A stretch of DNA of 48,829 nt from Bifidobacterium breve (GCA_945878865.1 CAMCUD010000029.1:1-48829), one strand, 5' to 3'; numbered from the stretch's first letter, positions 9,127-44,435 are shown. The notes: generated by a model from the letters alone, not told the origin. Program-made: numbers and translations.

Positions 9127-10659
9127 TCAATGCGAGACAGGCACCGTCGCCGGGCGGTCCGCGGTCTCGTAGCGGTAGTCGTCGAGCGGGAACGTCCGCG
9201 CCGCGCGGAACGCGCGCCGCGAGCTCGTCGGGCGCAGGAACGCCGTGTTGCCGTGCCGGTCGAAGTAGTAGCTGTTCGCCGTCGCGCAGTTGCCCTGGCG
9301 CCACAGCGAGTGGCTGAGCTTGCGCTCGGCCATCGCGGTCCACGCGTCCGCGGCCTCAGCGCGGACCTCGACGGCCGTCGCGCCACGCCGGCCGGCCTCG
9401 CGGACGACCCGGACGATGTGCGCAGACGCCGACTCGACGAGCTGGTGCCACGTCCCGCCCGTCCAGCCGTAGGGCCCGAAGATCATGAAGTGGTTGGGCA
9501 GCCCGGGCAGGCTCACGCTCTCGTACGAGCCCGGCGTGCGTTCCCGATACAGCGCAGCGAGATCGAACCCGTCGCGGCCGTGGACGGGCCGGTCCTCGAA
9601 CGGCTCGGGATCGAACGCCAGGTGGAACCCCGTGGCGAGCACGATCGCGTCGACGTCGCGGTCGACCCCGTCGGCCGTCCGGACACCGGTCGCGGTGATC
9701 TGCTCGATCGGGTCGGTGATGAGCTCGACGTTCTCGCGCGTGAAGCTGCGCAGATAGGTATTCGAGACGGCGGGGCGCTTGCACCCGATGTCGTAGTCGG
9801 GGGTCAGCCGCGCACGCAGCTCGGCATCGGGGACCTGCTGGCGGTAGAAGACCTCGCGCCCGACGAACTTCACGGCGCGGCTGGGCAGCTTCAGCCGCTG
9901 ATAGTCGACGACGGCGCCGACGAGCCCCATCTCGACGAGGTCCGCGGCGACCCGATGCACCGCGCGCTGCACGCCCGGCACCCTGCGGTAGAGCGCCTTG
10001 ACGACGCCGGGCGTCGGCGGATCGACCTTCGGCGCCACCCAGATCGGCGTGCGCTGATAGACGTCCAGCCGCGCGGCGTGCCGCGCGAGGATGGGCACGA
10101 TCTGCACCGCGCTCGCGCCGGTGCCGATGACCGCGATGCGCTGCCCGCGCGCGTCGAACGACCGGTCCCAGCCGGCTGACCGCAGCACGGTCCCGCCGAA
10201 GCCCTCGACGCCGGGGATGCCCGGATCCTTCGGCGCGACGAACGGCCCAATTGCGCTGACGACGAAGCGCGCGGTGACCTCGTCGCCGTTGACGTCCAGC
10301 CGCCAGAGGTGCGCATCCTCGTCCCACGTCCGCGCCCGCACGTCGTGCCCGAGCCTGATGTGCGGGCGGATGTCGTACGCGTCGGCGCAATGATCGACGT
10401 AGGCCTTCACTTCGGCGCCGCGCGCGAAGACCCGCGACCAGTCCGGGTTCAGCTCGAAGGAGAACTGGTACGCCTGCGCGGGCACGTCGACGCCGATGCC
10501 CGGGTAGACGTTGTCCCGCCACGTCCCGCCGATGTCGTCCGCCCGCTCGAAGAGAACGAAGTCCTCGATACCGGCCCGGCGCAGCGCGATGCCCATCCCG
10601 ATGCCGGAGATCCCGGCGCCGATGATCGCGACGTGGAGGTCGGGGGCGGTGCCGGCCAT
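9127..10659 (-). CDS. FAD-dependent monooxygenase, BVMO/FMO-like
   Basis: A 510-residue class B flavoprotein monooxygenase. It has an FAD-binding GAGISG (residues 14-19), a typical GGTWRDNVYPG segment (44-54) and an NADPH-binding GTGASA (179-184). The fingerprint FxGxxxHxxxW is present except that the histidine is Arg160 (F154, G156, W164). This departs from both BVMOs and FMOs and may alter activity. The likely reaction is NADPH- and O2-dependent oxygenation of a ketone or heteroatom. The ATG at 10659 follows TAGTGT by 7 nt, suggesting a leaderless mRNA. The second FMO at 37406 is a distant paralogue with an intact fingerprint. Confidence 0.88.
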   Translation of the reverse strand: MAGTAPDLHVAIIGAGISGIGMGIALRRAGIEDFVLFERADDIGGTWRDNVYPGIGVDVPAQAYQFSFELNPDWSRVFARGAEVKAYVDHCADAYDIRPHIRLGHDVRARTWDEDAHLWRLDVNGDEVTARFVVSAIGPFVAPKDPGIPGVEGFGGTVLRSAGWDRSFDARGQRIAVIGTGASAVQIVPILARHAARLDVYQRTPIWVAPKVDPPTPGVVKALYRRVPGVQRAVHRVAADLVEMGLVGAVVDYQRLKLPSRAVKFVGREVFYRQQVPDAELRARLTPDYDIGCKRPAVSNTYLRSFTRENVELITDPIEQITATGVRTADGVDRDVDAIVLATGFHLAFDPEPFEDRPVHGRDGFDLAALYRERTPGSYESVSLPGLPNHFMIFGPYGWTGGTWHQLVESASAHIVRVVREAGRRGATAVEVRAEAADAWTAMAERKLSHSLWRQGNCATANSYYFDRHGNTAFLRPTSSRRAFRAARTFPLDDYRYETADRPATVPVSH

Positions 10660-30189: not shown

Positions 30190-30435
30190 CGTCGCCCGAG
30201 GTCCGAGCTTGCGAGGACGGAGGGCGAAACAGGTTCTCCCCGCAACGTGCGGGGAACTCTCTCCGAGACCCCGATCTGGCGCGTTCGGCAGCCTAGACTG
30301 GAGAGTGCCTGCAAGAGGCGGATTTTCGGCGAGTCACGGCCCTGCAAGGCCACATCCGTTCCGTCTGACAGCAGCGCCAGCATGACCACCCCGCTTAAGC
30401 CGCGGAGGCTGACCGAACCGCTGGAGAGGAAGCAG
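30190..30435 (+). promoter_or_regulatory. nrdJ upstream region and leader
   Basis: This 246-bp gap holds the hairpin CCCCGC-AACGT-GCGGGG (30238-30254), probably terminating the previous gene. A -10-like TAGACT follows at 30294-30299, then a leader of about 130 nt with a small stem GGCC-CTGCAA-GGCC and two CCTGCAAG copies. GGAGAGGA lies before ATG 30436. I find no clear NrdR box and cannot build a cobalamin riboswitch by eye. Confidence 0.45.
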
Positions 30436-33414
<2,979 letters not shown>

Positions 33415-34255: not shown

Positions 34256-34909
34256 TCAGCCCACCAGTCCCTGCAGCGGACCGGGCAGCTTGTCCTTGAT
34301 CCGCTCCCGGACGTCGTCGATCGCCCCCTGCACGAGCGCGTCGCGGAGGATCTGCTGCAGCGCGTCGGGGTCGTCGAGGTTCGTGAGCACCGCGTCGACG
34401 TCGATCTGATCAACCGCCCAGCGCAGCGCATCCGCCGTGGGGACGACGTCGTCGACGACACCATCGGGAACGAGGTTCACGAGGTTCTGCGGGATGCCGA
34501 GCTCGTCGCCGATCTCGGGCAGCAGCGCGGAGACCGGCGGAAGCTGGTCGTTGCGCTCCAGCCGGTCGACACCGCTGCGCAGACCGTCCTGGATCGTCCG
34601 CGCGAGGCCCGCCTCGTCGGTGCCTGCCTCCCGGGCGAGCTGCGCGCGCTCGGCGGGGTACGGCAGCGCGAGCAGGAGCCGCTCCCGCGTGACGCCGAGG
34701 TCGCACGCCGCCGCGTCGAGCCCGCTGAGGACCACGGCTTCCGCCACGCTCTCCAGGTCGGGCTTGACGGCGGTACGCGCGCGGTCCTGGCACGGATCCG
34801 CCGAGCGCGCCGGGACGAAGTCCGCGCCGCCCCGCGAGAGCTGGAAGGCCAGGAGCCCGCCGCTCAGCACGAGCGCGATGGCGATGAGAAGCAGCCCGCG
34901 CGCACTCAT
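34256..34909 (-). CDS. membrane-anchored protein of unknown function
   Basis: 217 residues with one N-terminal membrane helix (GLLLIAIALVLSGGLLAF) and a mostly helical exterior domain with two Cys (in DPCQDR and AACDLG). Its ATG overlaps the stop of the upstream MFS gene (ATGA), so the two are translated together and may form one export unit. I do not recognise the family. Confidence 0.72.
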   Translation of the reverse strand: MSARGLLLIAIALVLSGGLLAFQLSRGGADFVPARSADPCQDRARTAVKPDLESVAEAVVLSGLDAAACDLGVTRERLLLALPYPAERAQLAREAGTDEAGLARTIQDGLRSGVDRLERNDQLPPVSALLPEIGDELGIPQNLVNLVPDGVVDDVVPTADALRWAVDQIDVDAVLTNLDDPDALQQILRDALVQGAIDDVRERIKDKLPGPLQGLVG

Positions 34910-36267
34910 ACCTGGCCGCCCTTCTCCCGCAGGAACACGGCGGGGATGATCGCGAGGAGCGCCAGGAGCGCGCCCGCCAGGAACGCGTCACGGAACGCGC
35001 GGGTCGCGGCGCGTTCGAGCTGGTCGTCGAGGCGGACCTCCAGCGCCGCCGCCTGTGCGGCCTGCGCCGCGGGCAGGCGAGCCGTCTCAAATGCGCGGCT
35101 GAGGTCCGGCACCTGCCCCTGCTCGGCGTCGAGCTGGTCGCCCAGGCCCTCGGCCAGCTTGAGCTTGCTCGACGCGGGAAGGCCCGAGTCGATCACCTGC
35201 GCGGCGATCGCCTCCTGCGCGGGCACCCGCGCATCACGCAGATCCGCGGTGAAGATCGGCGTGAGGATCAGCAGGCCGACGACGATCCCGCCGTGGCGTG
35301 CGGCGATCGTCCACCCGCCATGCAGGGCGCGCGGGACACGGTCGCGCAGCGCGGATTGGGTCAGCGCGTCGACGGTCAGCCCGAGTCCGAAGCCGATGAG
35401 GATCTGCGCGGGGACCGTCCACGCCGGGTTGGCGTCGGGCAGGAAGCCCAAACACGCGAGTCCCCCGCCGACGAGGATCGCGCCGGCGATCGCCTCCGCG
35501 CGCGTGCCGGCGCGCAGGCGCATGGCGAGCGGGCCCGCGATCACCGCGGCGACGGGCATCGCCGTGACGGTGACCGCCGCGAGCGCGGGTGAGCGGCGCC
35601 ACCCCTCGACCAGCAGGAGCACGAGGAGGAACAGCGCGGCAGTCAGCGCGGCGGAGAGCAGCGCCAACGCGAGGTTCGACGGGATGTCCGGGCGATCGGA
35701 CGGGCCGTCCTGACGCTCCACCCGCGAGCGCAGCGACAGGGAGACGGGGAACGCCAGCAGGACGAGTGGGACCTGGACGAAGAAGATCGACTGCCAGCTG
35801 ATGGCCTCGGTCATGAGGCCGCCGATCACCGGGCCGACCGCGGCGCCCGCGACCCCCGCCGCCGCCCACCGTGCGACGCCTTGGCGCTCGTCGCGCGAGA
35901 CGGCCACGAGCAGCTCCAGGCAGGAGGCGATCACGAGTGCCCCGCCGATCGCCTGCGCGACGCGTGAGGCGATGAGGATCTCGAGGCTGCCCGCCAGGGC
36001 ACAGCCGGCCGACGCCGCAGCGAACGCGACGAGCCCCACCGCCCCCGCCGACCCGGCGGCGCCCCGGGTGCAGATCTTCGCGGCCGGGACCGCGGCCACG
36101 GCCAGCACCAGGTTGAAGCCCGTCAGGACCCACGCGACCTGGGACACCTCGGCATCGAACTCGCGCAGGATGCTCGGCAGCGCGAGCGTGACGATCGCGG
36201 AGTCGGCGAGGACGATCCCCACCGCCAGGGACAGCAGGGCGACGGCGGCGCGCGGCGCGCGGGTCAC
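34906..36267 (-). CDS. MFS drug exporter, truncated DHA2-like
   Basis: A 453-residue transporter with 12-14 membrane segments. It has ADSAIVTLALPSILREF in segment 1 (the D1 motif of DHA2) and GPVIGGLMTEAISWQSIFFVQVP (motif C). It also has an extracellular loop near residues 355-430, rich in Leu/Ala/Gln (AIAAQVIDSGLPASSKLKLAEGLGDQLD), before the last helix. GTG 36267 was chosen because the transporter fold begins there; the frame upstream is noise. It is translationally coupled to the membrane-anchored protein at 34909. Confidence 0.85.
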   Translation of the reverse strand: MTRAPRAAVALLSLAVGIVLADSAIVTLALPSILREFDAEVSQVAWVLTGFNLVLAVAAVPAAKICTRGAAGSAGAVGLVAFAAASAGCALAGSLEILIASRVAQAIGGALVIASCLELLVAVSRDERQGVARWAAAGVAGAAVGPVIGGLMTEAISWQSIFFVQVPLVLLAFPVSLSLRSRVERQDGPSDRPDIPSNLALALLSAALTAALFLLVLLLVEGWRRSPALAAVTVTAMPVAAVIAGPLAMRLRAGTRAEAIAGAILVGGGLACLGFLPDANPAWTVPAQILIGFGLGLTVDALTQSALRDRVPRALHGGWTIAARHGGIVVGLLILTPIFTADLRDARVPAQEAIAAQVIDSGLPASSKLKLAEGLGDQLDAEQGQVPDLSRAFETARLPAAQAAQAAALEVRLDDQLERAATRAFRDAFLAGALLALLAIIPAVFLREKGGQV

Positions 36268-36394
36268 GCTGTGGAAGCTCCGATCATGCGGGGAGCTTCG
36301 CGGGTCGCGCGGCGTCGTGTCACGCCAGACACCATGCCTCGGTCTGTGACGAAGCGCACTCCCGCGGGCCGGCGACGCGCGTAGCTTCCGCTGT

Positions 36395-36499
36395 ATGACA
36401 GTCATCATAGTCGGCGCGATCGTGCTGCTGGCGGTGTGCCTCGCCGCCTCCACGCACGCGCTGCCGTCCCGCACCCATCGCGAACCGCTCCAGGACTGA
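36395..36499 (+). CDS. putative 34-aa single-pass membrane protein
   Basis: ATG 36395 to TGA 36499 encodes MTVIIVGAIVLLAVCLAAS, one hydrophobic helix, then THALPSRTHREPLQD, a hydrophilic tail. TAGCTT (36382-36387) ends 7 nt before the ATG, the same leaderless spacing as several neighbouring genes. It is divergent from the MFS gene and just precedes a hairpin repeat. Short, but composition and promoter placement support it. The function is unknown. Confidence 0.45.
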   Translation: MTVIIVGAIVLLAVCLAASTHALPSRTHREPLQD

Positions 36500-36517: not shown

Positions 36518-36563
36518 CGAACGTCACATCGGCGTCGCTATGACCGCACCGATGTGACGTTCG
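36518..36563. repeat. palindromic repeat (GCCGAACGT family) at SDR 3' end
   Basis: Perfect 15-bp arms CGAACGTCACATCGG (36518-36532) and CCGATGTGACGTTCG (36549-36563) around 16 bases. The outer CGAACGT/ACGTTCG matches the other copies, but the inner arm differs. The SDR stop codon (36538-36540) lies in its loop, and its right arm encodes the SDR end (APNVTSVRS). Confidence 0.8.
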
Positions 36564-37419
36564 GCGCCGCGGGCGCGGCTTCCGCGTCGGATCGGCGGAC
36601 CAGGTCCGCCATGGCGTCGTCGCGCGCGACCACGTCGTCGAGCAGCCACGGCAGCACGCCCCGGAGGATCGCCACGGCCCACCACGGCTTCGGCGCGAGC
36701 GTCCGCGGCGCGCGGCGCTCCACCCCGTCGGCGATCACCCGGCCGGCATCGTCGGGCGTGATTCGGCGCCGCAGCGGCGGCGGCATCCGGTCGCGCAGCA
36801 TCGCCGCGATCGGGTCGCCGTCCATCGTCACGTGGGTCATCTCCGTGTCGACCACGCCGAAGTAGGCCACGCCCGCACTCGCACCACGCGGCCCGAGCTC
36901 CAGCCGCAGCGACCGCCCCAGCTGCTCCACCCCGGCCTTGCTGATCATGTACGGCGAGCCCATCGGGCCGGGCATCATCGCCGCCACCGACGCGACCACC
37001 ACCATGTGCCCGCCCGACGCGATCACGTGCGGCACGGCCGGATGCACCGTGTTGAAGACGCCCGTGAGGTTGATGGCGATGACGCGGTCGAACTCGTCCG
37101 GGTCGAGCAGGCCGAGCGTGGCGCGAGACGGCGTGACGCCGGCGTTCGCGACGACGACGTCCAGCCCGCCGAACTCCGAAACGACCCGCTCGACCGCGCC
37201 GGCCATCGCGTCGCGGTCGCGCCCGTCCGCACCGATCCCGACCGCCTCCCCGGGAAGCGAAGCCGCGGCGGCCGCCGCCCGCTCCCCGTCGACGTCGACG
37301 ATCGCGACCCGGCCACCCCGCGCCGCGAGATGGCGCGCGGTGGCCAGGCCGATCCCCTGCCCCGCACCTGTGACGAGGCACGCCGCGCCGTCGAGGCGCA
37401 GCGCGCTACGCGACGGCAT
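36538..37419 (-). CDS. short-chain dehydrogenase/reductase
   Basis: A 293-residue NAD(P)-dependent SDR. The cofactor loop is TGAGQGIG (17-24), NAG is at 92-94, the catalytic Ser is at 144 and YMISK (Tyr157, Lys161) is the active site. The C-terminal extension (residues ~230-293) is longer than in minimal SDRs. It is the last gene of the operon, and its start lies 14 bases inside the upstream monooxygenase gene, so it likely oxidises or reduces a substrate or product of that enzyme. The last residues come from a palindromic repeat. Confidence 0.92.
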   Translation of the reverse strand: MPSRSALRLDGAACLVTGAGQGIGLATARHLAARGGRVAIVDVDGERAAAAAASLPGEAVGIGADGRDRDAMAGAVERVVSEFGGLDVVVANAGVTPSRATLGLLDPDEFDRVIAINLTGVFNTVHPAVPHVIASGGHMVVVASVAAMMPGPMGSPYMISKAGVEQLGRSLRLELGPRGASAGVAYFGVVDTEMTHVTMDGDPIAAMLRDRMPPPLRRRITPDDAGRVIADGVERRAPRTLAPKPWWAVAILRGVLPWLLDDVVARDDAMADLVRRSDAEAAPAAPNVTSVRS

Positions 37420-38890
37420 GCGCCGACTCCCGCACCGGGGTCAGTTGGTACGCGTCGGGGTCGAACTCCCGCGTCCGCGCGCGGTACTCCCAGCTCCAGT
37501 TCGGCCAGAGCCCGGCGTTGCGGCCCTGCGCGTCGGTGTAGTACGAGGAGCAGCCCCCGGTCTCCCACACCGAGCCCTCGGAACGCGCGTACATCTCACG
37601 CATGAACTCGGCCTCGACCTCGCGCTTGACCTCGATCGCACCGATGCCGCCCGCCCGCATGGTCCGTACGGCGTCGACGATGTAGCGGACCTGGTTCTCG
37701 ATCATGAAGAGCGCGGACTGATTGCCGCCGGCCGAGAACGGGCCGAGGATCGTGAAGAGGTTGGGGAAGCCGCTGAGCGTCGTGCCGAGGTAGCACCGCG
37801 TGTCGGTCGCCCACACGTCGGCGAGCGTCTCCCCCGTCGTGCCGACGACCACCCGCTGGCGCTTGGGCGGCACGTCGAAGCCTGTGCCCCAGATGATCGT
37901 GTCGACCTCGTGCAGCACACCGTCGCGCGTGCGCACGCCCTCCGGCGTGATCTCCTCGATGCCCTCGGTCACCACGGCGACGTTCTCCTCGCCCAGCGCC
38001 GGGTAGTAGCGGTCGGCGAGCACGGTCCGTGCGCAGCCGAGCATGTAGTCAGGGGTCAGCTTGCGGCGCAGCTCAGGGTCGCGCACCTGCCTGCGCAGCT
38101 GGAACCGGCCCGCCGCCTCGTACGGCGCACGGAAGCGCGTGTCGACGAAGCCGACGAGGCCCAGGCCCTCGATGAGCGTGTAGATCGCGCCGCGGACCGC
38201 GCGCTGGACGGCCGGCACCCGGCGGAAGACCTTGCGCTGTATCGCCGACGCCTGCAGGTCCATCCGCGGCAGCACCCACGCCGGGGTGCGCTGGAAGACG
38301 GTCACCTGGGAGGCGATCGGCTGGATCTCGGGCACGAACTGAATCGCCGACGCGCCCGTCCCGATGACCGCGACGCGCTCGCCGCGCAGGTCGTGGTCGT
38401 GGTTCCAGCGCGCCGAGTGGAAGGTCGTCCCGGCGAACGTGTCGCGGCCGGCGATCTCCGGGAGCTTCGGATCGCCGAACGGCCCCATCGCCGTGACGAG
38501 CACGTCCGAGGTCAGCTCACCCGACGTCGTCGTGACGTGCCAGCGGTGCGCGTCGGCGTCCCAGCGCGCGTCGGTGACCTCGCTCTGGAAGCGGATGAGC
38601 TTCTCGAGGTCGTGCTCGCGCGCGACACGCCGGGCGTAGTCGAGGATCTCCGGCTGCGTCGCGTAGGTGCGGCTCCAGTCGGGGTTCGGCGCGAAGCTCA
38701 GCGAGTACAGCGACGACGGCACGTCGCACGCGCACCCGGGGTACGTGTTCTCGCGCCAGACGCCGCCGACGTCGTCGCCGCGCTCGAGAATGACGACATC
38801 GTCGATCCCGGCCTCGGTAAAGCCGTGGCCGAGCGCCAGACCGGCGAAGCCGGCGCCGATGACGGCGGCGGTGTGGTGGGGGACGGACAT
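37406..38890 (-). CDS. Baeyer-Villiger/FMO-type flavin monooxygenase
   Basis: A 494-residue class B monooxygenase. It has FAD loop GAGFAG (12-17), GGVWRENTYPGCACDVPSSLYS, the full fingerprint FAGTTFHSARW (152-162, with His158) and NADPH loop GTGAS (177-181). It inserts O2-derived oxygen next to a ketone or onto a heteroatom using NADPH. It is third in a four-gene operon, after a diiron-like protein and a 2Fe-2S reductase and before an SDR; an alcohol-to-ketone-to-ester route is a reasonable guess. ATG 38890; the open frame upstream is a shadow of the reductase. Confidence 0.92.
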   Translation of the reverse strand: MSVPHHTAAVIGAGFAGLALGHGFTEAGIDDVVILERGDDVGGVWRENTYPGCACDVPSSLYSLSFAPNPDWSRTYATQPEILDYARRVAREHDLEKLIRFQSEVTDARWDADAHRWHVTTTSGELTSDVLVTAMGPFGDPKLPEIAGRDTFAGTTFHSARWNHDHDLRGERVAVIGTGASAIQFVPEIQPIASQVTVFQRTPAWVLPRMDLQASAIQRKVFRRVPAVQRAVRGAIYTLIEGLGLVGFVDTRFRAPYEAAGRFQLRRQVRDPELRRKLTPDYMLGCARTVLADRYYPALGEENVAVVTEGIEEITPEGVRTRDGVLHEVDTIIWGTGFDVPPKRQRVVVGTTGETLADVWATDTRCYLGTTLSGFPNLFTILGPFSAGGNQSALFMIENQVRYIVDAVRTMRAGGIGAIEVKREVEAEFMREMYARSEGSVWETGGCSSYYTDAQGRNAGLWPNWSWEYRARTREFDPDAYQLTPVRESAHAVA

Positions 38891-38912
38891 GGGATGGGCC
38901 CTCCGGAATGGA

Positions 38913-39992
38913 TCAGAGATCGAGCACCAGCCGCTCGCCCTGCGGGGCGCGCGACACGCAGATGAGCATCGAGTCGTCGCGCTCGCGGTCGACGAGGACG
39001 TGCCGGTCGCGGTGCTCGACCTGCCCGTCGAGCACGCGGCACTTGCACGTGCGGCAGAAGCCCTGCTGGCACGAGTAGCGCACGTCGGGCAGCACGCGGC
39101 GGATCGCGGCCAGCGCGGTCTCGTCGGCGGCGACCTCGACCGTCGCGCCGCTCTGCGCCAGCTCGATGGTGAACGGCTCACCGCCGACGACCGGCAGGGC
39201 GCTGAAGCGCTCGCTGAACACGGGCGCCATCGGGTCGATCGCCCGCAGCAGCTGCCGCGCGGTGTCCATGAGCGCGGGCGGGCCGCAGACGTACAGGTCG
39301 GGGACCGGCGGCAGCGCGTTGAGCTCACCGAGGATCGCCGCGACGTCCGCGAAGCCGTCGCCGTCGTCGTGGTGTAGCAGCACGTCCCCGCCCTCGCAGC
39401 GCGCGAGCTCGTCGAGGAACGGCATCGACGCCGCTGAACGACCGAGGTAGACCAGGCGCCACGGCTTCCCGGCGGCGGCGACGCTGCGCACCATCGGCAG
39501 GATCGGCGTGATGCCGATGCCGCCGGCGACGAAGAGGTACGACGGCGCATCCACGAGCCGGAACGCGTTGCGCGGCCCGCGCACGCGGATGATCGCGCCG
39601 GCCTCGAGCTCGTCGTGGATCTCGACCGACCCGCCGTTGCCCTCGGCGATCCGCCGGACGGCGACGCGGTACTGCGACCGGTCCGCCGGATCCCCGCACA
39701 GGGAGTACTGGCGCAGGCGGCCCGACGGCAGGAACACGTCGAGGTGGGCGCCCGGCGTCCACGAGGGCAGCAGTCGGCCGGCCCGGTCGACGAGCGTCAG
39801 CGCGACGACGTCCTCGGCGACCACCTCGCGTCCGGCGAGCCGCAGCTGCAGGTCGAAGCCCGCGCGGCGCACGGGCCGCGACCGCGACAGTGACCGCCCG
39901 GCGCGCCCAGCCGCGAAGACCCGCTCGTACGCATCGAAGAGGCGCGCGATCGCGCGGACGGTGCCGTCCAGCTCAACGTCCGTGGTCGGCAT
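38913..39992 (-). CDS. flavin/2Fe-2S oxygenase reductase (PDR/VanB-like)
   Basis: A 359-residue electron-transfer protein. It has a flavin-binding barrel with RQYSLCG (94-100), an NAD(P) domain with GGIGITP (157-163) and CGPPALM (236-242), and a C-terminal plant-type 2Fe-2S ferredoxin with Cys308, 313, 316 and 345. This domain order is that of phthalate-dioxygenase-reductase-like proteins, which feed electrons to an oxygenase. Its ATG shares one base with the stop of the diiron-like gene (TGATG), so the two are made together, and that protein is the obvious partner. Confidence 0.92.
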   Translation of the reverse strand: MPTTDVELDGTVRAIARLFDAYERVFAAGRAGRSLSRSRPVRRAGFDLQLRLAGREVVAEDVVALTLVDRAGRLLPSWTPGAHLDVFLPSGRLRQYSLCGDPADRSQYRVAVRRIAEGNGGSVEIHDELEAGAIIRVRGPRNAFRLVDAPSYLFVAGGIGITPILPMVRSVAAAGKPWRLVYLGRSAASMPFLDELARCEGGDVLLHHDDGDGFADVAAILGELNALPPVPDLYVCGPPALMDTARQLLRAIDPMAPVFSERFSALPVVGGEPFTIELAQSGATVEVAADETALAAIRRVLPDVRYSCQQGFCRTCKCRVLDGQVEHRDRHVLVDRERDDSMLICVSRAPQGERLVLDL

Positions 39993-40864
39993 CAGTGCGC
40001 CGTCGCCGCCTGCGCCGCCGGCGACTGCGCGAGGTAGCGCAGCGCCTTGTCCAGCGAGCCCATCTGCGACGGGTGGAAGTCCTTGCGCAGGTAGACGGGC
40101 ACCTCGGTGACGAAGTGGGCGCCGCTGGGGACCAGGCCCTTGCGGACGGCGCTGATGAGCTGGCGGCCCCAGAACTTCTGCCTCTTGCGGGTGGGGTCGT
40201 TGCGATACAGGTGCGCGGTGCCCCAGGCGAAGATCACGACGAGCAGGACGCTCGCCATCACGCCGGTGCGCGCGCGGCGGAAGTACGAGCCGTCCACGTA
40301 CATGTACGCGTCGAACGCGACGTTGCGGTGCTCGACCTCCTCGGCGCCGTGCCAGCGGATGAGGTCGAGCATCATCGGATCGACGGCGTCGTCGAGCGCC
40401 TCGGCGTCGAGGACCCACTGACCCATCACCGCGGTGTAGTGCTCGAGCGCGGCCGACAGCGCCAGGCGCTCGCACAGCCACGCGTGCTTCGCGCGCCCCT
40501 TCAGGCCCGGCCGGTTGAAGACGTGATCGACGAGCCACGAGAGCCGCCCGACGATCGGCCCGACGTCGAGCCCGTGCTTGTCGAGGTACTCGTGGAGGTC
40601 CTCGTGCGAGGTGGAGTGGATCTCCTCCTGCCCGATGAAGCCGATCATCTCGTCACGGAGGCGCTCGTCCTTGACGAGCGGCAGCGCGTCGGACAGCGCC
40701 TGGACCATCGCGCGCTCGCCCTCGGGGAGCGTGACGTGCATGACGTTCGTGATGTGGGTCGCGATCGGCTCGCCCTCGATGTAGTGCAGGGGGAGGTCGT
40801 CCCACCGGAACTGCACGTCGCGCGGGGTGATGGTGATCGCTTCGCTGTCGTAGACCTGAGTCAC
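39992..40864 (-). CDS. PF10118 'metal-dependent hydrolase', ferritin-like diiron candidate
   Basis: A 290-residue helical protein of the family labelled predicted metal-dependent hydrolase. Metal-ligand candidates are Glu50, E80-E-I-H83, Glu141 and E176-V-E-H179: two helix pairs each ending in ExxH, spaced 30 and 35 residues apart, as in diiron carboxylate oxygenases. A membrane helix lies at about 201-219. GTG 40864 was chosen because it is the first start after the operator and the conserved region begins there. It is first in the operon and coupled by TGATG to a 2Fe-2S reductase, which fits an oxygenase better than a hydrolase. The family name is recalled; the diiron reading is my inference. 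Confidence 0.78.
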   Translation of the reverse strand: MTQVYDSEAITITPRDVQFRWDDLPLHYIEGEPIATHITNVMHVTLPEGERAMVQALSDALPLVKDERLRDEMIGFIGQEEIHSTSHEDLHEYLDKHGLDVGPIVGRLSWLVDHVFNRPGLKGRAKHAWLCERLALSAALEHYTAVMGQWVLDAEALDDAVDPMMLDLIRWHGAEEVEHRNVAFDAYMYVDGSYFRRARTGVMASVLLVVIFAWGTAHLYRNDPTRKRQKFWGRQLISAVRKGLVPSGAHFVTEVPVYLRKDFHPSQMGSLDKALRYLAQSPAAQAATAH

Positions 40865-40882
40865 AGTCGGGGAACAGTGACG

Positions 40883-40896
40883 TGAGCGATCACTCA
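40883..40896. promoter_or_regulatory. TetR operator TGAGCGATCACTCA
   Basis: A 14-bp palindrome, symmetrical at 12 positions, in the 101-bp gap between the diiron operon and the divergent TetR gene. TTGAAG (minus strand, 40903-40898) just upstream may be the operon -35, placing the operator over the promoter. Confidence 0.55.
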
Positions 40897-40921
40897 GCTT
40901 CAACTCGCGTTTGATCTCCTG

Positions 40922-40927
40922 TAAAAT
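40922..40927 (+). promoter_or_regulatory. -10 element TAAAAT of TetR gene
   Basis: TAAAAT matches the consensus at 5 of 6 positions, with TTCAAC 17 bp upstream as a weak -35. It is the most AT-rich site in the divergent gap. Confidence 0.5.
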
Positions 40928-40965
40928 CGGGCTTGGAAGAGGATAGACGACCAGGGATTCACGTT

Positions 40966-41598
40966 TTGGCGAGCCGCAGGACCCCACAACAGGAGCGGTC
41001 GCGCGCGATGGTCGACCGCATCCTCGACGCCGCCGCCGTCGTCCTCGCCGAGGACGGCTACCAGCGCGCCTCGACGAACCGCATCGCCCGCGAAGCGGGT
41101 GTCTCCCCCGGCTCGCTGTACCGCTACTTCGCCGACAAGGACGCGATCGTCAGCGGACTGAGCACGCGACTCGTCGAGGACTTCGCCGCCGAGCTCGGCC
41201 CCGTGCTGCGCACCGCAATCGCGCTGCCGCGCGAGGAGGCCGGCCGCACGCTCGTCTCAGCGGTACTCGACGCGCTGGATCGCCACGCCCCACTGCTGCG
41301 AGCGATCGTCGACCAGGTTCCCGCCGACGAGCAGGCCGTCACGCTGCGCGACGTCCAGCAGCGCATCACCGACGTGACCTACCACCTCGTGGTGCTGCAC
41401 GGCGGGAGTCGCGACCCCGAGCGCATCGAGCAGACCACGTGGATGATCACGCAGATGTCGCAGCACCTGGCGGTGCGCTATGTGCTCGATGCGCCGGGGT
41501 TCTCGCGCGAGCTGTTCGTCGAAGGGCTCGAGCGGATGGTCGACGGGCTCCTCGAGCCGCGGCCGTCCGAGGCCCGCGATCAGCCCGCCCCGCCGTAA
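40966..41598 (+). CDS. TetR/AcrR regulator of the diiron-FMO operon
   Basis: A 210-residue regulator: SRRTPQQERSRAMVDRILDAAAVVLAEDGYQRASTNRIAREAGVSPGSLYRYFADKDAIV is the helix-turn-helix, followed by a helical ligand domain. The start is uncertain; TTG 40966 (with AGGG 9 bases upstream) and TTG 40933 are the options, with no ATG or GTG. It is divergent to the operon, with a palindrome between them, so it likely controls both. The 3' end overlaps the convergent lipoprotein gene by 19 bases. Confidence 0.85.
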   Translation: MASRRTPQQERSRAMVDRILDAAAVVLAEDGYQRASTNRIAREAGVSPGSLYRYFADKDAIVSGLSTRLVEDFAAELGPVLRTAIALPREEAGRTLVSAVLDALDRHAPLLRAIVDQVPADEQAVTLRDVQQRITDVTYHLVVLHGGSRDPERIEQTTWMITQMSQHLAVRYVLDAPGFSRELFVEGLERMVDGLLEPRPSEARDQPAPP

Positions 41599-42566: not shown

Positions 42567-42911
42567 ATGGAGGCGATCGAGCAGATCGGCAAGGCGTTCG
42601 AGTGGGTCGGCGTGGCGGTCATCGTCGTCGCCGCGCTCATCACGCTGTGGGTCGGGCTGACGACCTGGCGGCGGGAGAGCGGCGACGCCGCGTACGTCGC
42701 CGCGCGCCGCGCGTTCGGCCGGGGCCTGCTGCTGAGCCTCGAGATCTTCGTCGCCGCCGACCTCCTGCGGACCATCTCCGTCGACCTCACGCTCGAGGGC
42801 ATCGGCGCACTCGGCCTGCTCGTCGTCATCCGGACGATCCTGAGCTGGTCGCTGGAGATCGAGCTCACCGGCACGCTGCCCTGGCGCGCCGGCGGCTCGG
42901 AGACCGGCTAG
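42567..42911 (+). CDS. DUF1622 family membrane protein
   Basis: A 114-residue protein with three hydrophobic segments (FEWVGVAVIVVAALITLWVGLTTW, RGLLLSLEIFVAADLLRTISVD, LGLLVVIRTILSWSLEIEL). The pattern LLLSLEIFVAADL...VVIRTILSW matches DUF1622 proteins. TACCCT (42554-42559) ends 7 nt before ATG 42567, so it is probably leaderless. The function is unknown. The end overlaps the convergent kinase gene by 4 bases. Confidence 0.85.
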   Translation: MEAIEQIGKAFEWVGVAVIVVAALITLWVGLTTWRRESGDAAYVAARRAFGRGLLLSLEIFVAADLLRTISVDLTLEGIGALGLLVVIRTILSWSLEIELTGTLPWRAGGSETG

Positions 42912-44371
42912 GCGGCTGCGGCCTGGAGCACCTCCGGGTGCCGGGCCCACAGGTCGCCGAGGATCGCCTCGACGTGGCGGAAGATGTCCGCGTCGGGCGC
43001 GAAGCCGGCGGTGAAGCCCGACAGGTACAGCAAGTTCTTGAAGAAGAGCACGAGCTCCTTGGGCATCCGGAACCCCTCGAGCGCCAGCACGCGCAGGGTG
43101 CGGCCGAGGGTGTCGCCGAGGCGGTCGAACGTCACGGCGCCGTCCACCCGGTCGCCGAGGCGGTCGGCCTCGTCCTGCAGCGCCGCGCTCAGGGCGGCCA
43201 GGTCGGCGCCTTCGGGGATCGCGCCGAAGCGGGCCATCGCGGCGATCTGGCCGGCGGCGTCGTTCGTCGCGAAGGCGGCGAGGAATGCGACGAGCCCGGC
43301 GCGCTGGGTGTCGTCGAGCCGGCCGCAGATGCCGAAGTCCACGAGCGCGAACGTCCCGTCGGGGCGGACGAAGACGTTGCCCGCGTGCAGGTCGCCGTGG
43401 AACAGGCCGTGGACGAGGGTGCTCTCCAACACGCCGCGGATCGCGAGTTCGACAAGCCGATCGCCGTCGACCCCCGCGCCGTAGACGGCGGGCGCATGGG
43501 CGTAGGAGACGCCGTCCATCCGCTCCATGACGAGCACGCGCTCGGTCACGAGGCCGGGGATCGGGCGCGGCACGGCGACGAAGTCCAGGCCCTGGCGCTC
43601 GAGCGCGAGGCCACAGTCGACAAGGTTCTGCGCCTCCAGGCGGAAGTCCAGCTCCTCGAGGGTCAGCTCGGCGAACAGCTCGACGAAGCCGGCGAGGTTC
43701 GCGGTGCGCGCGGCTGGATGCAGACGTTCGCCCAGTGCCGCGGCGAGCGCCATCGTCTCGATGTCCGCGCACAGACGGCGCCGCAGCTTCGGACGCCGGA
43801 CCTTCACGACCACGTCCGTCCCGTCACGAAGCACCGCGCGGTGGGCCTGCCCGATGGATCCGGCGGCGATCGGCTCGGGATCGAACGACGCGAGCGTGTC
43901 GTCGCCGAGCTCTGCCGCGACGATCCGCTCGGCCACGCCGGCCCGGAGCGGCGGCGCCTGGTCGCGACACCAGGAGAACGCGTCGACCCAGGCGTCGGGC
44001 AGCAAGCCGCGGCCGCTGGCGATGAACTGACCGAGCTTGATGTACGCGGGGCCGCCGGCCCGGACGAGCCGCTCTGCGCGCGCGAGCGCTCCGCTACTTG
44101 CGTCGGGTGGAGCGACGGGCAAGCCGGTGGCGCTGGCCGCCGCGCTGAGCAGCACCAGGGGCGCGTCGGGCGCCGCGGCGCCGGCGATGCGCCAGCTCGT
44201 CGAGGCGAACGAGGCGATGGTGTCGGTCCACAGTCGCGGCGTGGCGAGCGCGGCGGCGTCGCGCGCGGCGCGGCGTCGGACGGCGGGGAGCGTCGACTGC
44301 CAGACCCGGGCCTCTTCGGCCAGTCCAGGGCGGCCGTCGAGCCAAGGCGAGGCGCCAGCTGTATGTGACAT
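42908..44371 (-). CDS. ABC1/AarF/UbiB-family atypical kinase
   Basis: A 487-residue kinase-like protein. It has the KxGQ motif (YIKLGQFIASGRGLLPD), the Ala-rich nucleotide loop EPIAAGSIGQAHRA, the invariant lysine VVVKVRRPKL, the catalytic FHGDLHAGNVF and the metal-binding LVDFGICGRL. The family supports isoprenoid-quinone or lipid metabolism by an ATPase-like activity. The start is ATG 44371 (or 44386). It is divergent from the DUF4396 gene. Confidence 0.9.
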   Translation of the reverse strand: MSHTAGASPWLDGRPGLAEEARVWQSTLPAVRRRAARDAAALATPRLWTDTIASFASTSWRIAGAAAPDAPLVLLSAAASATGLPVAPPDASSGALARAERLVRAGGPAYIKLGQFIASGRGLLPDAWVDAFSWCRDQAPPLRAGVAERIVAAELGDDTLASFDPEPIAAGSIGQAHRAVLRDGTDVVVKVRRPKLRRRLCADIETMALAAALGERLHPAARTANLAGFVELFAELTLEELDFRLEAQNLVDCGLALERQGLDFVAVPRPIPGLVTERVLVMERMDGVSYAHAPAVYGAGVDGDRLVELAIRGVLESTLVHGLFHGDLHAGNVFVRPDGTFALVDFGICGRLDDTQRAGLVAFLAAFATNDAAGQIAAMARFGAIPEGADLAALSAALQDEADRLGDRVDGAVTFDRLGDTLGRTLRVLALEGFRMPKELVLFFKNLLYLSGFTAGFAPDADIFRHVEAILGDLWARHPEVLQAAAA

Positions 44372-44435
44372 GGATCGATGGTACATAGGCCAGCGACACC
44401 CCGGGAGTGGACATCGGTCACACGAAACGCCCCGT

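Follow-up and report, generated by a model that had tools for sequence, protein, structure and literature searches.

A PF10118 'metal-dependent hydrolase' as the probable oxygenase component of an AurF-like diiron system with its own PDR-type reductase

The N-oxygenases AurF and CmlI (PF11583) combine a four-helix ferritin-like fold with the ligand pattern E, ExxH, E, HxxxExxH. In both enzymes the third His provided by the last motif ligates iron; R2 and MMO lack this residue. MMO, the toluene/phenol hydroxylases and the PaaA/PaaC–PaaE system have the pattern E-ExxH-E-ExxH and use a flavin/2Fe-2S reductase, and PaaE is a precedent for the domain order flavin, NAD, C-terminal 2Fe-2S in a reductase serving a diiron enzyme. 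Among operons for lipid-like substrates, the mymA operon of Mycobacterium tuberculosis presumably brings together a BVMO of ~495 aa, an SDR, an acyl-CoA ligase and also a lipase; to our knowledge it has neither a PF10118 gene nor a PDR-type reductase gene. Subterminal alkane oxidation by a monooxygenase, an alcohol dehydrogenase, a BVMO and an esterase has been proposed for Thalassolituus oleivorans, where proteomics of cells grown on long-chain alkanes did not identify the specific subterminal monooxygenase (PMC6304351).

The locus described here shares features with each of these systems. Its PF10118 protein has the AurF/CmlI ligand pattern and a predicted fold of the same kind, but unlike AurF and CmlI it carries an additional invariant His87 and a WHxxEExEH sequence around the last motif, and its gene stands in an operon with a PDR-type reductase and carbon-oxidising neighbours. 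The cassette reductase has the domain order of PaaE; however, its closest matches are phthalate dioxygenase reductase and P450–PDR fusions, in contrast to the reductases of the PaaA/PaaC–PaaE and MMO systems. Unlike the soluble diiron monooxygenases, the PF10118 protein is a single small subunit with a third His, and the cassette genes include no beta or gamma subunit and no coupling protein of the multicomponent enzymes. An oxygenase followed by a dehydrogenase and a type I BVMO recalls the subterminal alkane pathway, whereas the first enzyme would here be a PF10118 protein instead of AlkB, P450 or soluble MMO.

Layout of the locus

The window, that is, the whole 48,829-nucleotide stretch of DNA analysed, contains the following features of interest.

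39992–40864, minus strand: PF10118 'Metal_hydrol' protein, predicted AurF-like diiron oxygenase component (GTG start at 40864, stop at 39992, 290 aa; Pfam E 5e-73)
39990–39994, minus strand: TGATG stop/start overlap from the PF10118 gene to the reductase gene, read directly from the sequence
38913–39992, minus strand: PDR/VanB-type reductase (ATG at 39992, stop at 38913, 359 aa; Pfam domains and motifs)
37406–38890, minus strand: type I Baeyer–Villiger monooxygenase (BVMO; 494 aa; fingerprint FAGTTFHSARWN at 152)
36538–37419, minus strand: short-chain dehydrogenase/reductase (SDR; 293 aa; TGAGQGIG, YMISK)
40933–41598, plus strand: divergent TetR-family regulator (TetR_N E 7.5e-17; the true start possibly lies further in)
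40865–40932, no strand: intergenic region between the divergent regulator and cassette genes, a probable control region from its position

The product of 39992–40864 scores 246.3 bits against the PF10118 profile (Pfam gathering score 33.2). The gene order given in the initial annotation was borne out by the sequence: the stop TGA of the PF10118 gene (39994–39992) and the ATG of the reductase gene (39992) have one base in common, and the BVMO and SDR genes follow in the same operon, the SDR gene overlapping the end of the BVMO gene by 14 nt. The divergent TetR gene is kept in three related loci. Scanning for promoters, terminators and operators was uninformative, and no clear operator or promoter was recognised in 40865–40932.

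Several other genes in the window were recognised by eye. An MFS-type transporter gene (34906–36474, minus strand) lies 63 bp downstream of the SDR gene on the same strand; it was considered as a sixth member of the cassette and dropped, being absent after the SDR gene in a related locus (L030). An ABC1/UbiB-type atypical kinase gene lies near the cassette (42908–44386, minus strand), and an ABC1-domain gene is also found upstream of the cassette in L030 (6048–7625). A 1055-aa frame (30247–33414, plus strand) reads as a B12-dependent ribonucleotide reductase. The window also holds a second BVMO-like gene (9169–10641, minus strand), 42% identical to that of the cassette.

Predicted iron site and fold of the PF10118 protein

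The predicted ligands are encoded at the following positions, all invariant in 120 of 120 aligned relatives.

40715–40717, minus strand: Glu50 codon, predicted iron ligand, helix 1
40616–40627, minus strand: E80xxH83, predicted iron ligands, helix 2, aligning with the ExxH of the AurF family
40442–40444, minus strand: Glu141 codon, predicted iron ligand, helix 3
40328–40351, minus strand: H172xxEE176xxH179, predicted extra His ligand and ExxH, helix 4, with HxxxExxH as in the AurF family

The four Glu and two His first proposed as a diiron site are thus all present, with pair spacings of exactly 30 and 35 residues. The 120 relatives span 21–83% identity and include Proteobacteria; they comprise a phylum-wide sample (28 PF10118 proteins, 21–56% identical to the window protein), 80 named relatives, plasmid relatives from Proteobacteria and Actinobacteria, and a distant member from a viral contig. 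The motif used to retrieve the 80 named loci and the viral-contig member includes WHxxEExE, so that in these sequences the columns concerned are partly conserved by construction, while the sets found by HMM and by tblastn are free of this bias. Within the phylum sample, E50, E80, H83, H87, E141, W171, H172, E175, E176, E178 and H179 are invariant (28/28). Because the proposed ligands are unchanged both in these 28 and in all 120, the alignments indicate that they are not there by chance.

Two further His residues that were missing from the initial list, H87 and H172, are invariant as well (120/120). H172 lies four residues before E176, at the position shared with H192 in the AurF alignment, and AurF chain 3chh carries the same HxxxExxH (HLRDETAH). 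This third His makes the PF10118 protein AurF-like rather than MMO-like, and leaves N-oxygenation as a rival to be weighed below. H87 (40604–40606, minus strand) lies one helix turn past H83; nothing equivalent to it was noted in the alignment of the AurF family.

An AlphaFold (AF2) model of the protein (43-sequence input; pLDDT 90.9, pTM 0.88) predicts a four-helix ferritin-like bundle, with matches to solved members by Foldseek and VIA. The modelled helices 33–63/67–96 and 123–153/163–178 form two hairpins, in which E50 would be level with E80 and E141 with E176. Among the Foldseek matches listed from the PDB, CmlI comes first, followed by R2lox, AurF and ribonucleotide reductase R2; all 50 of the 50 listed are ferritin-like proteins (probability up to 1.0), at weak to modest significance (best E 9e-3, TM ~0.45). 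VIA gave Z ~12–13 against R2, CmlI, AurF, R2lox and MMO hydroxylase, a level that calls for caution with helical bundles; for modelled helical proteins such Z scores alone are undecisive, yet the matches listed all come from one superfamily. An assignment to the HDO (heme-oxygenase-like) proteins was set aside, the structural matches being R2/AurF-like.

Sequence comparisons lead in the same direction. Pfam AurF (PF11583) is matched by 9 of the 28 PF10118 members at E ≤ 1 (best 5.4e-6) and is their commonest second Pfam match; weaker cross-matches are to Ferritin_2 (1.4e-4), rubrerythrin, COQ7 and R2. The window protein itself has no match to PF11583 at E ≤ 1. A PDB sequence search with a single PF10118 protein as query returned no matches, and one with the PF10118 profile only insignificant matches (BesC-like, E 0.25). 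Alignment of PF10118 to the AurF family by hhalign is weak (P ~0.005), with all seven ligand positions in register and a score of 28.3; the highest-scoring of 150 column shuffles reached 26.2 and the highest of 11 decoy families 23.2. Judged from these alignments, the relation between PF10118 and AurF is weak but real.

The protein is almost certainly a ferritin-like dimetal protein, and its diiron assignment is strong. The earlier reading as a ferritin-like diiron-carboxylate protein therefore stands, except that its nearest kin are of the AurF/CmlI type, with a third His ligand, and not the classical two-His enzymes. A membrane helix had also been proposed at ~201–219. Residues 201–219 are indeed hydrophobic (Kyte–Doolittle 1.92), but membrane insertion is unproven: a 19-residue window of ≥1.6 on the same scale is found in only 14 of 28 PF10118 relatives, and since the R2-type structural alignments cover this part of the model, the stretch may form a helix of the bundle in a soluble protein.

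The reductase and its pairing with PF10118

The reductase contains a flavin domain (RQYS at 94), an NAD domain (GGIG at 157) and a C-terminal 2Fe-2S domain (CX4CX2CX29C from 308), and matches the PDR structure 2pia at E 2.9e-60. It had been recognised correctly as a flavin/2Fe-2S reductase; its precise class is PDR/VanB, the name borne by the records of its relatives and a class familiar mainly from Rieske oxygenase systems and P450 fusions. It is the sole PDR-type reductase gene in the genome (E ≤ 1e-10), and the PF10118 gene is likewise single.

In 77 of the 80 nearest relatives the reductase gene lies directly downstream of PF10118 and in the same orientation; of the other three, one is at a contig end. 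The 1.34 Mb of flank around these 80 loci contains one further reductase copy outside such pairs. The association predicted for PF10118 therefore holds for near relatives but is not family-wide: about half of the phylum sample has the reductase within 1.5 kb of PF10118, and the most divergent members are without it. On a tree of PF10118 the reductase-adjacency label changes three times, compared to 18 in shuffles, which places the origin of the coupling in a single actinobacterial clade; members outside that clade must use other electron donors. The case for an oxygenase–reductase pairing is good, and we consider it highly likely that the window PF10118 protein is an oxygenase served by the adjoining PDR-type reductase. 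The reassignment of the whole family that had been put forward is upheld as regards a diiron protein (ligands in 120/120), but the description as a reductase-coupled oxygenase extends to one actinobacterial clade and not to all of PF10118.

Proposed function, alternatives and distribution

Taken together, these proteins are likely to form a two-component AurF-like diiron oxygenase, with PF10118 as the oxygenase component and its own PDR-type NAD(P)H reductase. We infer that the reductase would take electrons from NAD(P)H and deliver them, by way of its flavin and 2Fe-2S centres, to an Fe–Fe site in the PF10118 protein, and that the reduced site would bind O2 and insert one oxygen atom into a C–H or C=C bond. 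The substrate would be hydrophobic, putatively a hydrocarbon, a fatty or isoprenoid chain, or a terpenoid. The cassette SDR would then yield a ketone, which the BVMO would convert to an ester or lactone. The cluster probably serves to oxidise an oily compound; we give C-oxygenation of a lipid-like substrate an even chance, and the step order hydroxylase–SDR–BVMO slightly less than that.

The two downstream enzymes are an optional part of the arrangement. The BVMO fingerprint FAGTTFHSARWN compares with FxGxxxHxxxW(P/D), its last position being N and not P/D; GxGxx Rossmann motifs at 12 and 177 flank it, the PDB matches are CHMO-type, and the type I fingerprint is kept in 42 of 42 high-scoring BVMO matches. 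The BVMO/SDR cassette of the initial annotation is thus confirmed as one operon with a type I BVMO, but only some 30 of the 80 relatives carry it: BVMO and SDR genes lie downstream in 30–32 of them, mostly Nocardia, Rhodococcus and relatives, and the Streptomyces relatives have PF10118, reductase and TetR only. The genome contains 15 BVMO-like genes, so a BVMO next door carries less weight than the reductase does. Among the additional neighbours scanned, AMP-binding CoA ligases occur most often, with aldehyde dehydrogenases and lipase-like hydrolases found sometimes. An aldehyde dehydrogenase and a CoA ligase gene stand upstream of PF10118 on a Rhodococcus plasmid, and in Dietzia an SDR gene precedes the PF10118–reductase pair.

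On a Rhodococcus fascians plasmid the pair is directly followed by a limonene-1,2-epoxide hydrolase gene, and diiron enzymes of the same fold include the acyl-ACP desaturases. Both would suit a diiron desaturase or epoxidase acting on a lipid or isoprenoid, whose product would be a C=C bond or an epoxide and not an alcohol. We regard this as the less probable course, since the SDR and BVMO of the cassette follow more naturally from an alcohol, and the window cassette showed no epoxide hydrolase gene. An AurF/CmlI-like N-oxygenase, oxidising an amine instead of a C–H bond, would account for the spacing H172xxxE176xxH179, identical to that of AurF, and for the places of CmlI and AurF at the head of the structural and second Pfam matches. 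It is nevertheless improbable for this locus, because the SDR, BVMO, aldehyde dehydrogenase, acyl-CoA ligase and epoxide hydrolase partners fit carbon oxidation, and neither amine nor aromatic amino-acid genes were noticed among those of the cassette. The rank of R2lox and R2 among the best structural matches would also agree with a dimetal protein that is no oxygenase (an R2lox-like oxidase, ferroxidase or peroxidase), recycled by the reductase without substrate oxygenation; this is very unlikely, as the cassette partners are substrate-oxidising enzymes and we know of no dedicated PDR-type reductase for R2lox or ferritins. A true metal-dependent hydrolase, for which only the database name speaks, is scarcely credible given that no hydrolase fold or motif was found, that the informative cross-matches are all ferritin-like diiron proteins and that the PF10118 gene is paired with one for an NAD(P)H reductase.

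The two-component diiron oxygenase thus remains our preferred reading, and the 'metal-dependent hydrolase' label is very probably wrong because of the iron-binding signature, the predicted fold and the dedicated electron-supply partner. The label is attached to records of Acinetobacter, Pseudomonas, Rhodococcus, Dietzia, Tsukamurella and Pseudoalteromonas; PF10118 is found in Streptomyces, Nocardia and mycobacterial relatives as well. The family is not modelled in NCBIfam, and no functional study or reassignment of PF10118/COG3687 was found in the open-licence literature, including under PIRSF/InterPro names, nor were experimental data on any member found in the literature. The wrong name would hide a likely O2-activating oxygenase. 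More tentatively, PF10118 may represent an unrecognised family of AurF-like three-His diiron C–H oxygenases, which with a PDR-type reductase, SDR and BVMO would make a self-contained cassette for subterminal oxidation of alkanes or isoprenoid lipids, possibly with the missing first enzyme of BVMO-based alkane pathways. If so, gene searches directed at the oxidation of hydrocarbons, plastic waxes, sterols and terpenoids have missed a first-step enzyme.

From its place beside oruR and the locus numbering, we take PA0830 of P. aeruginosa PAO1 to be a PF10118 gene; this member is distant (~31% identity to the window protein) and no reductase gene adjoins it. In independent work that hints at the proposed function, PA0830 was up 16.9-fold at a hexadecane–water interface, along with PA1538 (an FMO-like flavin monooxygenase), PA3427 (an SDR) and alkB2 (PMC5736630).

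PF10118 was found in 3 of the 201 genomes sampled from the order, all of one genus, and the three loci share the regulator and the cassette within the flanking sequence retrieved. As the nearest relatives outside are from Saccharomonospora, Amycolatopsis and Nocardia, this distribution suggests horizontal acquisition. Viral contigs hold two distant PF10118 members only. PF10118 matches also occur on plasmids of many Acinetobacter, clinical isolates included; on two mobilizable plasmids (L111 and L172), PF10118 is accompanied by TetR and two PaaI thioesterase genes, near a P450–ferredoxin–reductase set.
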